Shown here: piece by piece, positions 4,743-14,626 of the stretch | How positions within the stretch are numbered: the first letter of the stretch is position 1 | Layout: every line of letters starts with the position of its first letter | From: an uncultured Verrucomicrobiota bacterium | GTDB lineage: Bacteria > Verrucomicrobiota > Verrucomicrobiia > Limisphaerales > CAIQOK01 | Length of the DNA stretch: 43,961 nt | Reading direction: 5' to 3' | Assembly: GCA_903873415.1 (NCBI GenBank) | Contig: CAIQOK010000034.1 | Coordinates: 1-43,961, forward strand | Translations under genes and position numbers: made by a program | The notes under the pieces: generated by a model | What the model was told of the DNA's origin: nothing | Databases searched by the model: none | Seen by the model: the letters and a program-made list of their open reading frames with translations, nothing else

Positions 4743-6911
4743 ATGGAATTGCGTGATTTTGCCGAACGGATCTTATTCGCGACAACGCTGGAAGAAAAAC
4801 TGCGGACTCCGGATGAAATCACCGACTACTTTCCCGGCTCTGCTTTGGCCTTGCCGACGGCCCCCGGCCGGCCAGCCAACTTGGTTTTCAAGCCTTATGG
4901 GACCGGTGAGAAAAGTGATTTTCCCGGGCTGCACCGGCTCGAACAGACTGAGGAGCGGGGCAAGCTGCTGCATTTTTTCGCGAACCACGAGCTGCTGGCC
5001 ACGGAGTTGATGGCGTTGGTGCTGCTCCGCTTTCCAGACGCGCCTCCAGCCTTCCGGCGCGGCGTGTTGCAGACCCTTCAGGACGAACAGGAACACACCC
5101 GTCTTTATATTGGGCAGATGAAGTCCTGCGGCGTTGGGCTGGGCGACTTTCCTGTCAGCGGCTATTTCTGGCGCTGCGTGGCTCCGATGGAAAACCCCAT
5201 TGATTACGTGGCTGGACTGAGTTTGACGTTTGAACAAGCGAACCTGGATTTTGCCGGCCACTACGGTCGATGTCTGGCGGCGGTGGGCGATGCCTCTTCC
5301 GCAAGACTGCTTGAGAAAATCTATCGGGACGAGATTGGTCATGTCGCAGTGGGGTTGAAATGGTTTCGCCGCTGGAAAAACCCCTCGCAAACGGATTGGG
5401 CGGCATTCTGTCAGGCGTTGAAATTTCCGCTCTCCCCCCAGCGCGCCAAGGGGTTCACTCTGAACATGGCCGGACGCCGTGCCGCCGGATTCGATCCGCA
5501 ATTCATCGCCGAGTTGAACGTCTATTCCCAGTCCAAAGGCCGCACCCCGAGTGTTTTTGTCTTCAATCCTTTTGCGGAGGGCTTTATTGCAGAAGGCGGC
5601 GCGTTTAATCCCACCCGGGTGCAGTTGCAATTGGCGCGCGACTTGGAAAACCTTCCCCAGTTCCTTTGCCGGCAGGACGATATTGTGTTGCTGCAGCGCA
5701 AACCCTCGGTGGAGTTCCTCAGCGGTATCAAGGAGGCGGGATTCCCGCTCCCGGAGTTTGTCGAGTTGCCGGCCCTCAGCCCTGCGGGTCGAGGATCGGC
5801 ATTCCGCGGCTTGGCCTCACGAAAGCTGGGCCGCCTCTGTCCATGGGCTTGGGGAACGGACAGCTTCAAATTGCTCAAGCCTCTGTTTGGCAGCGTCACC
5901 GGCGAGGTTCGCGGCGATGATCAGCGCTTCAATCCGGGTTTGGCTCGGCTCTATTCCAAGGCTTGGAGCGCGGGATTCCTCCGGGATATCATTTCGGATG
6001 GATACTGCGGCGACGGGGCTCGCGGCTTGAAAACGACCGACGCGCAAAACTGGCTGTGCACCGAAAATGAAGTCGGGGTGGCGGTCAACTCGATGCCCGG
6101 GGTGAGGGACGCGATCGCCCGGATCCGCGGTCGCGGCCATCACCCAGTGGTGGTCAAGGAGGCTCTGGGCTTGGCGGGAAGCAACGCGCTGAGGCTCTTT
6201 GAACCGGAAGTGCTGGAGACACAGACGCGCTGGATGTCCAAGGCTTTCGCCCAAGGCCGCGAGTTGGTTGTTGAACCCTGGCTGGAGCGCCTGCAGGACT
6301 TTTCCGTGCAACTGGAAATGTCCGGGGCGGGTTTGAAGCTCTGCGGCTACACCGGCCTGGTGACCGACGCCCGCGGTCAGTTCCAGTCCAACTTTGCCGA
6401 GTCGCATCACCACAAGCGCCTGCCAGAGGGCATCCCGTCGCTTTTTATCGGCCGGCCCGACATCACCGGCCGGATCCTGTTTTTTTACGAGCGGTTGATA
6501 GCCCGTCTTGAGAAGGAGTTGCGCAACCTGAATTTCGCCGGCCCGGTCGGCATCGACGCCTTTGTTTACCGCGATACGGCCGGCGGGGTGCGATTGAAGC
6601 CGGTGGTGGAGATCAACCCCCGTTTCACCATGGGGCGACTGCTGGTGGAATTGATGAGGCACTCCTGTCCGGGCAGTTTTGGGTCTCTGCGGCTGGTCAA
6701 TGGGGCGGTTCTCAAGCAGGCAGGCTTGGGGACTTTTTCAGACTATGCCTGCCGGTTGGTGGAGCAGTTCCCCTTGCGGTTGGAGGGGCAACCTCAATCG
6801 AGGCTCCGGAGCGGGGCGGTTTGCCTGAACGATCCGGCGCTGGCTCAGGCCTGTCTGGCCGTGTTCCAAGTTGGCGCGGAACCCGCGCTGATTTCCAGCA
6901 AGAAGATTTAG
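4743..6911 (+). CDS. DUF455 ferritin-like diiron domain fused to ATP-grasp-like domain
   Basis: A 722-residue two-part protein. Residues 1 to about 270 match the DUF455 (COG2833) ferritin-like family and contain a full diiron ligand set: E88, E115-x-x-H118, E164 and E197-x-x-H200. The C-terminal part (about 300-722) resembles an ATP-grasp ligase: VVVKEALGLAGSN near 470 (nucleotide-binding Lys and glycine loop), LVVEPWL (hinge), and VEINPRFTMGRL near 622, with the Glu/Asn pair expected to bind Mg-ATP. Stand-alone DUF455 proteins are about 270 residues, so this is a fusion. The likely chemistry is an iron-dependent oxidation together with an ATP-driven ligation, but the substrate is unknown. 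I used the ATG at 4743; TTG 4731 and GTG 4734 are alternatives. It follows the kinase by 55 bp, on the same strand. Confidence 0.85.
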   Translation: MELRDFAERILFATTLEEKLRTPDEITDYFPGSALALPTAPGRPANLVFKPYGTGEKSDFPGLHRLEQTEERGKLLHFFANHELLATELMALVLLRFPDAPPAFRRGVLQTLQDEQEHTRLYIGQMKSCGVGLGDFPVSGYFWRCVAPMENPIDYVAGLSLTFEQANLDFAGHYGRCLAAVGDASSARLLEKIYRDEIGHVAVGLKWFRRWKNPSQTDWAAFCQALKFPLSPQRAKGFTLNMAGRRAAGFDPQFIAELNVYSQSKGRTPSVFVFNPFAEGFIAEGGAFNPTRVQLQLARDLENLPQFLCRQDDIVLLQRKPSVEFLSGIKEAGFPLPEFVELPALSPAGRGSAFRGLASRKLGRLCPWAWGTDSFKLLKPLFGSVTGEVRGDDQRFNPGLARLYSKAWSAGFLRDIISDGYCGDGARGLKTTDAQNWLCTENEVGVAVNSMPGVRDAIARIRGRGHHPVVVKEALGLAGSNALRLFEPEVLETQTRWMSKAFAQGRELVVEPWLERLQDFSVQLEMSGAGLKLCGYTGLVTDARGQFQSNFAESHHHKRLPEGIPSLFIGRPDITGRILFFYERLIARLEKELRNLNFAGPVGIDAFVYRDTAGGVRLKPVVEINPRFTMGRLLVELMRHSCPGSFGSLRLVNGAVLKQAGLGTFSDYACRLVEQFPLRLEGQPQSRLRSGAVCLNDPALAQACLAVFQVGAEPALISSKKI

Positions 6912-6958: not shown

Positions 6959-9025
6959 ATGACACCAAAATTATTCTCCGAGTTGGGTCTGTCCGCCGAC
7001 GTGCTGAAGGCCATTGACAAGATGGGTTTTGAACAAGCTTCGCCCATCCAAGCCGAAGCCATTCCCGCAATGCTGACGGGCAAGGATATTGTCGGCCAGT
7101 CCCAGACCGGCTCGGGCAAGACGGCCGCCTTCGGCGCGCCGGCGGTGGACAAAGTCGATGTCGACAAGCGCGCCGTTCAGATACTCATCTTGTGCCCCAC
7201 GCGCGAACTGGCCGTGCAGGTCTCGGAGGAGATCCACAAGCTGGCCGCCTTCAAGCGTGGCCTGCACGCTCTTCCCATTTACGGCGGCCAATCCTACGAC
7301 CGCCAGCTCTTCGGCTTGCGCCAGGGCGCCCACATTGTCATCGGAACCCCCGGTCGGGTCATGGACCACATGCGCCGCGGCACCCTCAAGTTCGACTCGC
7401 TCAAGATGGTCATTTTGGACGAGGCCGACGTGATGCTGAACATGGGCTTCCGCGAGGACATTGAGTTGATTCTGCAGGCGACGCCCAAGGAGCGGCAGAC
7501 GGTGTTCTTCTCGGCCACCATGCCCCGGCCCATCCGCGAGCTGATTGAGAAATACTCGCGCGAACCCCAGAACGTCCGTATCGAGCAGAAGGCCATGACC
7601 GTGCCGACGGTGGAGCAGGTTTATTTTGAAGTGGACCGCCGTTATAAAATCGAACTGCTCACCCGCCTGATTGACATTCATGATCTGAAGCTGGGCATCA
7701 TTTTCTGCAACACCAAGCGCATGGTCGATGATCTGGTGGATCATCTCAACGCCCCAGGGTATTCCGCCGACCGTTTGCACGGCGACATGACTCAAGCCCA
7801 GCGCGATCGCGTGATGAACAAGTTCCGCAAATCCGGCTTGGAATTCCTCGTCGCCACCGACGTGGCGGCGCGGGGCATCGATGTGGATGATATCGAGGTT
7901 GTGTTTAATTACGACCTGCCTTACGACGGTGAGGATTACGTGCACCGTATCGGCCGGACCGGGCGCAAGGGACGCAGTGGCCGGGCCATCTCTTTCGCCT
8001 CAGGCCGCGAGGTGTTCCAAATCCGGAATATCGAGCGCTTCACCAACATGCGCATCCAGCGCGGCAAGCCGCCCACAGCCAACGAGGTCGATGAGGCCCG
8101 CGCCAGCGTTTTTCTCGAGAAGTTGCGGGCCACTCTCGCCGGGGGGGAATTCAAACGCCACGACCGCTTGGTCGAGCGACTTTTGGAAGAGGGGTTTGCC
8201 TCGACCGACATCTGTTCCGCCCTCATTCATCGCCTGCAAAGCGGTGATGGTGCCGCATCCAAACCCCCGCAGCGCGAGGAGGAATACGAACGTCCCCAGC
8301 GCGACGACCGGGGCGAGCGCCGTCAGGACTATCGCGACGATCGCCGCCCGCAATTTGAGGACCGCGCCCCGCGCCCCGCATACCGCGCCCCCGAGCCGGC
8401 ACGGCTGCGCCCCGTCGAGCGCCCTTTGATCTCAAAACCCCAAATCCCCGCCAAACCCTACGCCAGCAAGCCTTTGTCCCCGGTCGCGTCGACCGCCCCC
8501 GGCGGAGGCATTGAAAGAAAGGAGCGCGCGGAATCCAAGCCTGCGGTGAAAGCTTCCGAGGGGATCTCCACCCGGTCATCAACGCCGGCGGTGGCCAAGG
8601 ATGCGGCGGTTGTTGCGCCCGCAAGCGCCGCCTCGGCCCAATCCCAAGCCGCTCAGCCTAAGACGTTTTCTGACGAGGAGATTCTCGCGTCCGTCGGCAA
8701 CCCCGAACCCCAAGCGCAACCCAAACCCGGCGGCAAAGCCAAAGCCTTTCCGGCCGGCGTCACTAAGCCCAAGGTTAGCCGCGCCACCCCCGCCCACCAA
8801 ACCCGGCTCTGGATCAATCTGGGCGAAGAGATGGACATCAAACCCATCGACGTCGTCAACGCCATCGCCGGCGAAACCGGGTTGCCGGGCAAGACCGTTG
8901 GCACCGTGGACATCCGGGAACGGCATCTGTTTGTGGACGTGGATTCCGAGCAGGCCAACAGCATCATTGCCAAGCTCAACCGCGCCGAGATCAAAGGCCA
9001 TAAGGTAAAGGTCAAGACTGCGTGA
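6959..9025 (+). CDS. deaD: DEAD-box RNA helicase, DeaD/DbpA type with C-terminal RNA-binding domain
   Basis: A 688-residue ATP-dependent RNA helicase. The Q motif (FEQASPIQ), Walker A (S48-T55), PTRELAVQ, DEAD at 154-157, SAT at 185-187, the VATDVAARGID region and HRIGRTGR are all present. After the two RecA-like domains (to about residue 370) there is a long low-complexity linker (about 430-600). It starts rich in Asp/Arg/Tyr and then becomes rich in Ala/Pro/Lys. The last roughly 75 residues form a DbpA-type RNA-recognition domain (RLWINLGEEMDIKPIDVV). Members act in ribosome assembly and cold adaptation by unwinding structured rRNA or mRNA. Its TGA overlaps the GTG start of the next gene, so the two are probably translationally coupled. 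Confidence 0.93.
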   Translation: MTPKLFSELGLSADVLKAIDKMGFEQASPIQAEAIPAMLTGKDIVGQSQTGSGKTAAFGAPAVDKVDVDKRAVQILILCPTRELAVQVSEEIHKLAAFKRGLHALPIYGGQSYDRQLFGLRQGAHIVIGTPGRVMDHMRRGTLKFDSLKMVILDEADVMLNMGFREDIELILQATPKERQTVFFSATMPRPIRELIEKYSREPQNVRIEQKAMTVPTVEQVYFEVDRRYKIELLTRLIDIHDLKLGIIFCNTKRMVDDLVDHLNAPGYSADRLHGDMTQAQRDRVMNKFRKSGLEFLVATDVAARGIDVDDIEVVFNYDLPYDGEDYVHRIGRTGRKGRSGRAISFASGREVFQIRNIERFTNMRIQRGKPPTANEVDEARASVFLEKLRATLAGGEFKRHDRLVERLLEEGFASTDICSALIHRLQSGDGAASKPPQREEEYERPQRDDRGERRQDYRDDRRPQFEDRAPRPAYRAPEPARLRPVERPLISKPQIPAKPYASKPLSPVASTAPGGGIERKERAESKPAVKASEGISTRSSTPAVAKDAAVVAPASAASAQSQAAQPKTFSDEEILASVGNPEPQAQPKPGGKAKAFPAGVTKPKVSRATPAHQTRLWINLGEEMDIKPIDVVNAIAGETGLPGKTVGTVDIRERHLFVDVDSEQANSIIAKLNRAEIKGHKVKVKTA

Positions 9026-9438
9026 GCGAGCTGGTCCCACCTAAATCAGTCGAGCGCCTGTTCCCGTTCGTCCTTAAGTCGCGCAACCTGCTGGTTGGGC
9101 GCGACACACTGCGCCGCAGCAAGGGTAAGCTGCACTTCATCCTCATAACCGAGGATGTTTCCGAAAACAGTCGCACCGAGGTGTTGGCTGATTTCAGGCA
9201 CTATCCTGTCGTTCAGTGCTTTGTTTCGGCGGATCTTGAAAAACACTTTGGCGTGCGCGGCGCCAAAGTCGTGGGCTTCGCCAAATCAGGATTGGCCCAG
9301 TCCATCTACGCCGAACTCAAACCCCACCGCATCAATCAACCGGTGACGAAGTCCAATCCGCCCGACCCTGCACAGGGCCCTGCGGCAGGCCGCAAGGCGG
9401 CAGCAAAGCCGCCCGCTCAGCAAAAGAGCCGTCCCTGA
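9022..9438 (+). CDS. L7Ae/YlxQ-like RNA-binding protein
   Basis: A 138-residue protein whose first roughly 100 residues fit the ribosomal L7Ae/L30e/YlxQ fold, which binds kink-turn RNA. The core reads LLVGRDTLRRSKGKLHFILITEDVSENS, then a helix-strand-helix ending GFAKSGLAQSIYAEL. The tail is rich in Ala/Pro/Lys and probably disordered. It starts at a GTG that shares four bases with the helicase stop (GTGA), so it should be made with the helicase, possibly to act on the same RNA. The fold assignment is by eye and moderately sure. The RNA target is unknown. Confidence 0.75.
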   Translation: MSELVPPKSVERLFPFVLKSRNLLVGRDTLRRSKGKLHFILITEDVSENSRTEVLADFRHYPVVQCFVSADLEKHFGVRGAKVVGFAKSGLAQSIYAELKPHRINQPVTKSNPPDPAQGPAAGRKAAAKPPAQQKSRP

Positions 9439-12809: not shown

Positions 12810-13817
12810 TCAGGCGTGAGAGGTCGCTTGGAGAGAGGCGGGGGGCAGGTTGCGGACGCCGACCATTTGCTGAGCCTCGCTATCCCACACCTTCAAGCGC
12901 AGGCAGCGGAGGATTTCCCGCGGATGCAGCGAGGTTGTCTTGGGTTTCTGCAGTTCGGGCATTGCGAGCAATACCTCGGGCAGCCGGTAGAAGGGGATGC
13001 GGGCGTTGAGATGGTGGATGTGGTGGTAGCCGATGTTGGCGGTGAACCAGGCCCAGAGGGGACCTGTCTTCATGTGGCTGGAGGATTCCAAGGCGGCTTT
13101 TTCATAGGTCCATCCGGCGCTGTCGCCGAAAATCACGCCCGGGAAATTATGCTGGGCATAAAACAAATAGCTGCCGATTCCGTGCGCAATGAAATGCGGG
13201 ATCACCTGGGAGAGCACCAGCGCGGTCCAGCCGAAGTTGAAAACCAGGGCGATGGAGATGGCGACGTGGATGAGTAATGCTATCAGGCAGTCGAAGTGTT
13301 CCCGCGGGTTGTTTAAGAACGGCTGCAGGCACATTCCATACAGAAAGGCGAAGAGGTAGCCAAAGAGGATGGTCAGGGGATGGCGCATGAAGAGGTAGTG
13401 CCACCGCTTGCCCCGGGAACATTTGAGATAATTGGCGCGGGTCATGATGGGAAAGGAGCCGATGTGCGAGCCGCGCAGCTTGGAATTGTGGTTGTGATGG
13501 TGGTTGTGCGAGCTGCGCCAGATGCTCGTCGGGCTCAAGGCGAGAATGCCAAAGATGCGCATCAGGATTTCCGCCAGCCGCGAATGGGGGAGAATGGCCT
13601 GATGCTGTTGGTCGTGGTAAATGACGAAGGAACGCAACACCAGCAGTCCGGCCAGAACGCTGCAAATGATTTTGGCGGCGGGATGGAAATTCCAGAGCGT
13701 TCCTATTAAGCAGACTGCCAGAAGCATCCCGGTTGACAAGACATGAAGCCAGCTCTTCGCTGTGCAATCGACGGCGTAGGGCTTGGTTGCCAGAATCAGA
13801 TCTTTACCGGTTTTCAT
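12810..13817 (-). CDS. Membrane fatty acid desaturase
   Basis: A 335-residue integral-membrane diiron desaturase/hydroxylase. The three histidine boxes are H68DQQH72, H104NHHHNH110 and HHIHH at 265-269, separated by membrane helices at about 25-65 and 145-205. An extra HFIAH lies near 208. These boxes carry the two irons that insert a double bond into an acyl chain. The best resemblance is to bacterial acyl-lipid desaturases; the regiospecificity is unknown. The ATG at 13817 was chosen because upstream in-frame starts (13886, 13925) add a tail without homology and run towards the neighbouring gene. The pilin-like gene lies 104 bp upstream on the same strand. Confidence 0.9.
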   Translation of the reverse strand: MKTGKDLILATKPYAVDCTAKSWLHVLSTGMLLAVCLIGTLWNFHPAAKIICSVLAGLLVLRSFVIYHDQQHQAILPHSRLAEILMRIFGILALSPTSIWRSSHNHHHNHNSKLRGSHIGSFPIMTRANYLKCSRGKRWHYLFMRHPLTILFGYLFAFLYGMCLQPFLNNPREHFDCLIALLIHVAISIALVFNFGWTALVLSQVIPHFIAHGIGSYLFYAQHNFPGVIFGDSAGWTYEKAALESSSHMKTGPLWAWFTANIGYHHIHHLNARIPFYRLPEVLLAMPELQKPKTTSLHPREILRCLRLKVWDSEAQQMVGVRNLPPASLQATSHA

Positions 13818-13921
13818 GCTCAAATTTAGCCGGATTCCATGATCAGGCACAATCTCATCCCTTGTCGATGAGAATCGCGCCGGCATGGGAACCGCTTGGA
13901 AACACTGGTTGAGCTCCGCCC

Positions 13922-14626
13922 TCAAAGACCGGTTGTGTTGTCATCCCAGCCCCGGCGGCTGTGGAAGGACCACCAGTCCACCTCCTTTGGATCGCGTTTT
14001 TCCTGCGCCGCGTGGGTGTCGGCAAAAACGAAATTCTGGCGCTGAAAATGGGGGGCGGCCGAAGGGGTCCAGTAGGGCATTTCCCAGAGCAGCACCGCCG
14101 CGGACGAGTTGGCAATGGTGGTGTTCTTGCGCCCGCTCACCGGGCTCTGAACTTCATAAGCAGATTGGTCGGCTGTCAGATAGATATGGTTCCAGACGTA
14201 GGTCAGGGAATCATTATCCTTGAGCAAAGTGGCGAAGGCGGGCACAAGCGGATCCTTGGATTGGCTGCCAGCGGGGCAAATATAAAGGGCGGGTCCGATT
14301 GTTTTTGCGGGGGCAGGATTGCTGCCGACGTTTCTGCCGAGATAAGGTTCGAGCAGCTCAGGAAGATAGGCTGTGCCCAGGGCGTGATCCGTTCCCCAGG
14401 CTTTTCCCCAGCTCAGGCAATAGGGCAAGCGTTCGTGGTAATCGGCCCCATACATTGCCACCCCGAGTCCGATCTGCCTGAGATTGTTGAGGCAAAAGGT
14501 TTGTTGCGACTTGGCCTTGGATCTGGCAAGTGCGGGCAGGAGCAGCGCGGCCAGAATGGCAATGATGGCAACCACCACCAGAAGCTCGATCGGCGTGAAG
14601 GCGCGGATGCGAATGGTAAATTTCAT
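13922..14626 (-). CDS. Type II pseudopilin-like protein (prepilin N-terminal methylation domain)
   Basis: A 234-residue protein with a short basic leader and a classic prepilin N-terminus, [27 protein letters not shown]. The prepilin peptidase should cut before the Phe, with Glu at +5. The residue at -1 is Ala rather than the usual Gly. After the helix comes [16 protein letters not shown], the standard start of the DUF1559-like globular part seen in large paralogous sets in Verrucomicrobia and Planctomycetes. The usual C-terminal ADGH motif is ADTHA here. I chose the ATG at 14626, which leaves a normal leader; an in-frame start at 14725 would add 33 residues. It is likely anchored in the inner membrane or assembled into a pseudopilus. 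Confidence 0.88.

Follow-up and report, generated by a model that had tools for sequence, protein, structure and literature searches.

A DUF455 ferritin-like domain joined to an ATP-grasp module: a candidate one-gene oxidase and ligase of uncultured bacteria

Introduction

What might an enzyme do that carries, on one chain, a predicted diiron domain of the DUF455 family and a predicted ATP-grasp module? The question is raised by a single gene on a 43,961-nucleotide contig (hereafter the window, meaning the whole stretch of DNA that was analysed) from a 3.8 Mb draft genome that is most closely related to MAGs of Verrucomicrobia subdivision 3 / Limisphaerales. We found no description of a DUF455 or ferritin-like domain fused to ATP-grasp in the open-access literature, earlier work elsewhere being possible, and the DUF455 papers found there give no function for it. 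A sequence-only reading of the gene had proposed an oxidase and a ligase that modify, for example, a small acid or peptide in two steps. Here we follow up that proposal with structure prediction, fold and profile comparison, and a survey of homologues and their genomes.

Results

Gene and protein

The protein has an N-terminal DUF455 domain followed by a C-terminal pre-ATP-grasp/ATP-grasp module, all in one intact 722-residue frame, and a search of the assembly returned a single copy of the gene:

4743-6911, + strand: whole gene, 722 aa plus stop, single open frame

Sequence comparison shows that the start, MELRDFAE, is kept among homologues. The full-length structure prediction reached a pLDDT of 90.4 and a pTM of 0.87. 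Conservation is given below for an alignment of 108 full-length homologues, the lowest identity to the query being 31%.

A predicted diiron site in the DUF455 half

The N-terminal half belongs to DUF455, PF04305 matching it at 153.6 bits against a gathering threshold of 34.3. Modelled alone, this half forms a four-helix bundle (pLDDT 92.7). Among its closest fold matches, bacterioferritins and Dps reach Z 14-15 with some 142 residues aligned, and the match to aldehyde-deformylating oxygenase (Z 14.6) extends over 186 residues, almost all of the fold; the Foldseek E-values are weak (best 0.04), as is expected of helical bundles. The alignment to bacterioferritin 4cvs is near-gapless, placing model residues 67 to 214 on chain residues 2 to 144 (142 aligned, 2.0 Å), and it carries the bacterioferritin ligands, which we take to be E18, E51, H54, E94, E127 and H130, onto E83, E115, H118, E164, E197 and H200, respectively. 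The features of this half are as follows:

4842-5507, + strand: DUF455 ferritin-like domain, residues 34-255 (PF04305 E 8.8e-45; ferritin-like fold model)
4989-4991, + strand: E83, predicted helix-A diiron ligand (108/108 invariant; in register with bacterioferritin)
5085-5096, + strand: E115xxH118, predicted helix-B ligands (108/108 invariant)
5232-5234, + strand: E164, predicted helix-C ligand (108/108 invariant)
5331-5342, + strand: E197xxH200, predicted helix-D ligands (108/108 invariant)

The sequence-only reading had named E88 together with the last five of these residues. Those five hold, each being invariant, and E88 does not. Because E83 lies in the bacterioferritin register, and because 19 DUF455 proteins that do not belong to the fusion family all have E at position 83 but E, D, N or A at position 88, we assign the helix-A ligand to E83; the invariance of E88 is confined to the fusion family. 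The resulting E, ExxH, E, ExxH pattern on a four-helix bundle is that of ferritin-like diiron carboxylate proteins, and we infer that this half binds iron.

A further set of residues (H77, N81, H82, Q116, Y122, W143, T162, Q165, N167 and D169) is invariant or nearly so among the fusions. Several of them differ in stand-alone DUF455 proteins, which suggests that the DUF455 half of the fusion has a substrate pocket of its own.

Two other kinds of protein came up in these searches. Encapsulin ferritin gave weak matches in 14 of 46 members (best 2e-4), which we judged to reflect a common fold only. Some Verrucomicrobiota genomes (loci L107-L122, for example L110 and L117), mostly of family f61, encode divergent DUF455-like proteins of 445-550 aa, up to three per genome, that keep all six diiron ligands.

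An ATP-grasp module in the C-terminal half

Sequence searches say little about the C-terminal half. The window protein matches no ATP-grasp family above its curated cut-off among the Pfam and NCBIfam profiles: ATP-grasp_3 (PF02655) scores 15.6 bits against a cut-off of 23.2 (E 0.017), DUF3182 has an E-value of 0.054, below threshold, and the LdmS profile NF047900 scores 11.5 bits against a cut-off of 475 (E 0.088). The LdmS profile matches 7 of 46 members weakly (best 0.0026), and a full-length profile search again gave a weak LdmS match (E 0.0038). Profiles of each half searched separately gave no convincing match, and the whole protein, searched by sequence against the PDB, had no match. PF18604 (PreAtp-grasp), a domain that occurs in PGM1, matches 9 of 43 relatives (best 1e-6) and not the window protein; homologue L205, at 1e-5 and 26.4 bits, falls just below the cut-off of 27.5.

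Structure gives a clearer answer. At E <= 0.001 the full model matches 373 PDB chains, and those ranked highest are all ATP-grasp folds. For the C-terminal half the ranking is led by PGM1 (3wvr, Z 27.7 over 382 residues) and a Streptomyces ATP-grasp peptide ligase (8ynd, Z 25.5), followed by LdmS (7r8p, Z 23.4) and BesA (8yi6, Z 23.1); PurK trails at Z 19.5, and PurK and GARS chains together span Z 17-19.5. The features of the module are as follows:

5550-5957, + strand: pre-ATP-grasp region, residues 270-405 (PF18604 matches in relatives; boundary approximate)
5958-6878, + strand: ATP-grasp domain, residues 406-712 (fold match to PGM1, LdmS, BesA)
5958-5960, + strand: K406, predicted ATP-binding lysine (108/108 invariant)
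6156-6158, + strand: K472, predicted ATP-binding lysine (108/108 invariant)
6273-6275, + strand: E511, hinge acid of EPWL (E in 106/108, Q in 2)
6555-6557, + strand: D605, predicted Mg ligand (108/108; D also in three Bacteroidales relatives)
6609-6623, + strand: E623-x-N625-x-R627, predicted Mg ligands and carboxylate/acyl-phosphate arginine (108/108; same in three Bacteroidales relatives)

The roles given to these residues are those that we take to be usual for the ATP-grasp fold: two ATP lysines, Mg ligands, the arginine of ExNxR and the hinge acid. The hallmarks picked out by the sequence-only reading, namely the loop of K472 and EALGLAG, the EPWL hinge at E511 and the EINPR segment (E623, N625, R627), are thus present and conserved. 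That reading had named a match to a non-ATP-grasp family as grounds for giving it up; what we find is the fold of ATP-grasp amino-acid and peptide ligases, with the two lysines, the hinge acid and the D/E-x-N Mg ligands of the superfamily. We therefore file the protein under the ATP-grasp superfamily, on fold and residues, and not under Pfam family PF02655. Judged on the predicted model, the ATP-grasp call is correct, yet sequence searches alone barely detect it, and the C-terminal half would be expected to bind ATP.

Stand-alone relatives of the whole module, without DUF455, occur in Bacteroidales plasmid records from Parabacteroides, Prevotella and Phocaeicola, with the catalytic residues of the fusion except that K406 is replaced by R. 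These genera are anaerobes, which fits a ligase part that does not itself require O2. The stand-alone ligase genes (L123 7992-9200, L124 7998-9113 and L125 around 8001-9248) are annotated as hypothetical, and Pfam gave no significant family for those of L123 and L124.

Spread and conservation of the fusion

The fusion is real and old. It is found in Verrucomicrobiota, Latescibacterota and a third phylum, mostly in uncultured bacteria; 80 loci came from scanning GTDB genomes. Targeted searches found the module in 40 of 58 genomes of the third phylum, with frame lengths of roughly 650-850 aa in nearly every case, and the fusion in 22 of the 388 Verrucomicrobiota genomes sampled. Among 58 close relatives of the window's genome 19 have a match, the partial ones lying at contig ends or in frames broken only by alignment, and none shows an arrangement as two separate genes. 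Absence from close relatives had been put forward as a sign of an assembly artefact; the 108 intact full-length homologues rule this out.

The six diiron ligands and K406, K472, D605, E623, N625 and R627 are invariant in all 108. The stretch that joins the domains is nearly as constant:

5526-5552, + strand: inter-domain linker with S-[KR]-G-R-x-P motif, residues 262-270 (G266 108/108, R267 107/108)

All 108 homologues have exactly 21 residues from F254 to F274, and the motif is nearly invariant. Such a constant linker, in agreement with the pTM of the full-length model, suggests that the two domains are held in a fixed arrangement. Pairwise distances of the two halves correlate (r 0.94) and the tree tracks phyla, save for a few MAGs with labels at odds with their position, so the halves appear to have travelled together. 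The DUF455 half is the better conserved, with a mean difference of 0.44 versus 0.62 in the ligase half.

At one locus (L095 8001-9145, identical in sequence to the G018 match, L016) the match to the DUF455 half ends near residue 301. Opposite-strand sequence at that contig end resembles a Rieske oxygenase N-terminus by eye and is probably a contig-end misassembly.

Gene neighbourhood and link to aerobic life

No conserved operon partner was seen among about 106 loci, whether a reductase, a transporter or a second pathway enzyme, and the enzyme thus resembles a one-gene module whose substrates are common metabolites. Inference from operons or gene clusters was dropped, since neighbours vary across these loci and local patterns are too few. 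In the window the gene is flanked by a two-component system on one side and a DEAD-box helicase on the other. Elsewhere, an M17 leucyl aminopeptidase gene lies directly downstream at a 0 bp gap in two genomes of one phylum (L228 7507-9000, L229 6972-8459), with clpA close by and the same operon likely; a DCC1-like thiol-disulfide protein is encoded upstream in two genomes; and clpS/clpA lie near the fusion in five. In three genomes of the distant Verrucomicrobiota family f89 (L225, L226, L227), clpS-clpA stands head to head with the fusion gene.

The window also encodes a protein resembling intradiol dioxygenases, with a Dioxygenase_C domain and a Tat-like N-terminus (1605-2351, - strand), and a membrane protein of the fatty-acid-desaturase family with His-box motifs (12810-13925, - strand), another likely diiron enzyme.

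A haem-copper oxidase (COX1, called at E <= 1e-20) is present in all 22 Verrucomicrobiota genomes that carry the fusion, compared with 140 of 388 overall (Fisher 6e-11), and by genus in 12/12 versus 82/199 (Fisher 1.4e-5), an association that is inflated by relatedness and confounded by shared ancestry, genome size or lifestyle. In family f59, neither COX1 nor the fusion occurs in those genomes of genus g59 that were listed, and several genera with COX1 have the fusion. Such a link would be expected of an O2-dependent enzyme, though it is no proof of O2 use.

Discussion

Based on the two folds and on sites that are jointly kept in 108 homologues, a single-chain oxidase and ligase with a small acid or peptide as substrate, as the sequence-only reading had it, is the best-supported account of this protein. 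We consider it reasonably probable that the gene encodes a bifunctional enzyme that combines diiron/O2 oxidation of an amino-acid-type metabolite with ATP-driven joining of a carboxylate to an amine. The DUF455 four-helix bundle would bind two irons through E83, E115, H118, E164, E197 and H200, and this site, with O2 and electrons from an external donor, would hydroxylate, desaturate or N-oxygenate a substrate of amino-acid type. The ATP-grasp module may convert a carboxylate to its acyl phosphate with MgATP and condense this with an amine, in the manner of PGM1-, LdmS- and BesA-type ligases, although fold similarity does not prove function. Both reactions, and the single substrate that we infer they share, would lead in a free-standing enzyme to a small metabolite, an oxidised amide or dipeptide-like compound. 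The product is probably an oxidised, small peptide-like molecule that has not been described before.

We slightly prefer oxidation before ligation. Ligation before oxidation falls under the same explanation as a special case: the ATP-grasp module would form a dipeptide or amide, and the bound peptide would be oxidised by the diiron domain. The mangotoxin diiron oxidase MboA acts on a peptide built by the ATP-grasp ligases MboC/MboD (PMC13185094), which makes ligation first a serious rival, and the Bacteroidales ligase module also stands alone without DUF455. The order of the domains along the chain proves nothing, and we regard ligation first as possible, if rather unlikely.

It is improbable, in our judgement, that the ferritin-like half instead serves as an iron, O2 or peroxide sensor, or as an iron store, that controls a plain amino-acid ligase. 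Bacterioferritin, Dps and rubrerythrin do match it structurally about as well as aldehyde-deformylating oxygenase does, and a peroxiredoxin gene adjoins stand-alone DUF455 in two alphaproteobacteria. However, the stronger conservation of the DUF455 half relative to the ligase half, with its many invariant polar residues, suggests a specific pocket.

RimK-like ATP-grasp ligases modify proteins, and the ferritin-like MiaE hydroxylates tRNA. With these as parallels, and with no biosynthetic gene cluster around the gene, the enzyme might add an amino acid to a protein, tRNA or cell-wall peptide and hydroxylate it as well. We think this quite improbable: the nearest folds are small-molecule or peptide ligases, and the patchy occurrence in close relatives (19/58 genomes) is unlike that of most core macromolecule modifiers. 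Very unlikely is a PurK- or GARS-like role in carboxylation or nucleotide-precursor ligation, for which the matches to those chains speak, since the Z scores of peptide and amino-acid ligases are higher by 4 to 8 units, mostly over longer alignments, and PreAtp-grasp matches occur in relatives.

Returning to the bifunctional oxidase and ligase, the fusion is a functional clue that links DUF455 both to aerobic life and to the chemistry of amino-acid/peptide ligases. If the proposal is true, it would provide a ferritin-fold counterpart to pairs of oxidase and ATP-grasp ligase that have so far been of heme-oxygenase-like fold, and it would point to a new metabolite from many uncultured bacteria. 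More tentatively, the gene may be a single-gene pathway spread over several phyla, in which a diiron oxygenase and a ligase in fixed geometry pass a substrate on, yielding a new general metabolite rather than a cluster-specific one and giving DUF455 its first biochemical role.

Comparison with known systems

What is new here is the single-chain, ferritin-fold version; the superfamily of each half and the pairing of the two activities are already known. PGM1, the pheganomycin peptide ligase (3wvq/3wvr), shares the fold of the entire C-terminal half (residues 269-722, 3.2 Å), including the layout of pre-ATP-grasp plus ATP-grasp, but it has no oxidase domain, sits in a biosynthetic cluster and is only 17% identical to the fusion. 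LdmS, the Staphylococcus aureus L-aspartate--L-methionine ligase (7r8p/7r8q, NF047900), is likewise similar in fold, whereas it is single-domain and its profile matches far under the curated cut-off. Stand-alone DUF455 proteins (PF04305) of alphaproteobacteria and Neisseria have the same domain and the same six ligands; they differ in having no ligase half, in an identity of about 30% or less and in neighbours such as peroxiredoxin.

The closest parallels in chemistry come from paired systems. BesA, the ligase of the beta-ethynylserine pathway, resembles the C-terminal half over 381 residues, and the same pathway also employs a diiron oxidase, BesC. BesA and BesC are encoded by separate genes, and the fold of BesC is heme-oxygenase-like, not ferritin. 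BesC is named in PMC13185094, which places 1447 heme-oxygenase-like diiron oxidases near ATP-grasp ligases in at least 25 cluster types. In MboA with MboC/MboD, a diiron oxidase cooperates with amino-acid ligases on a short peptide, but the diiron fold is another one and the separate genes lie in one cluster with a redox partner.
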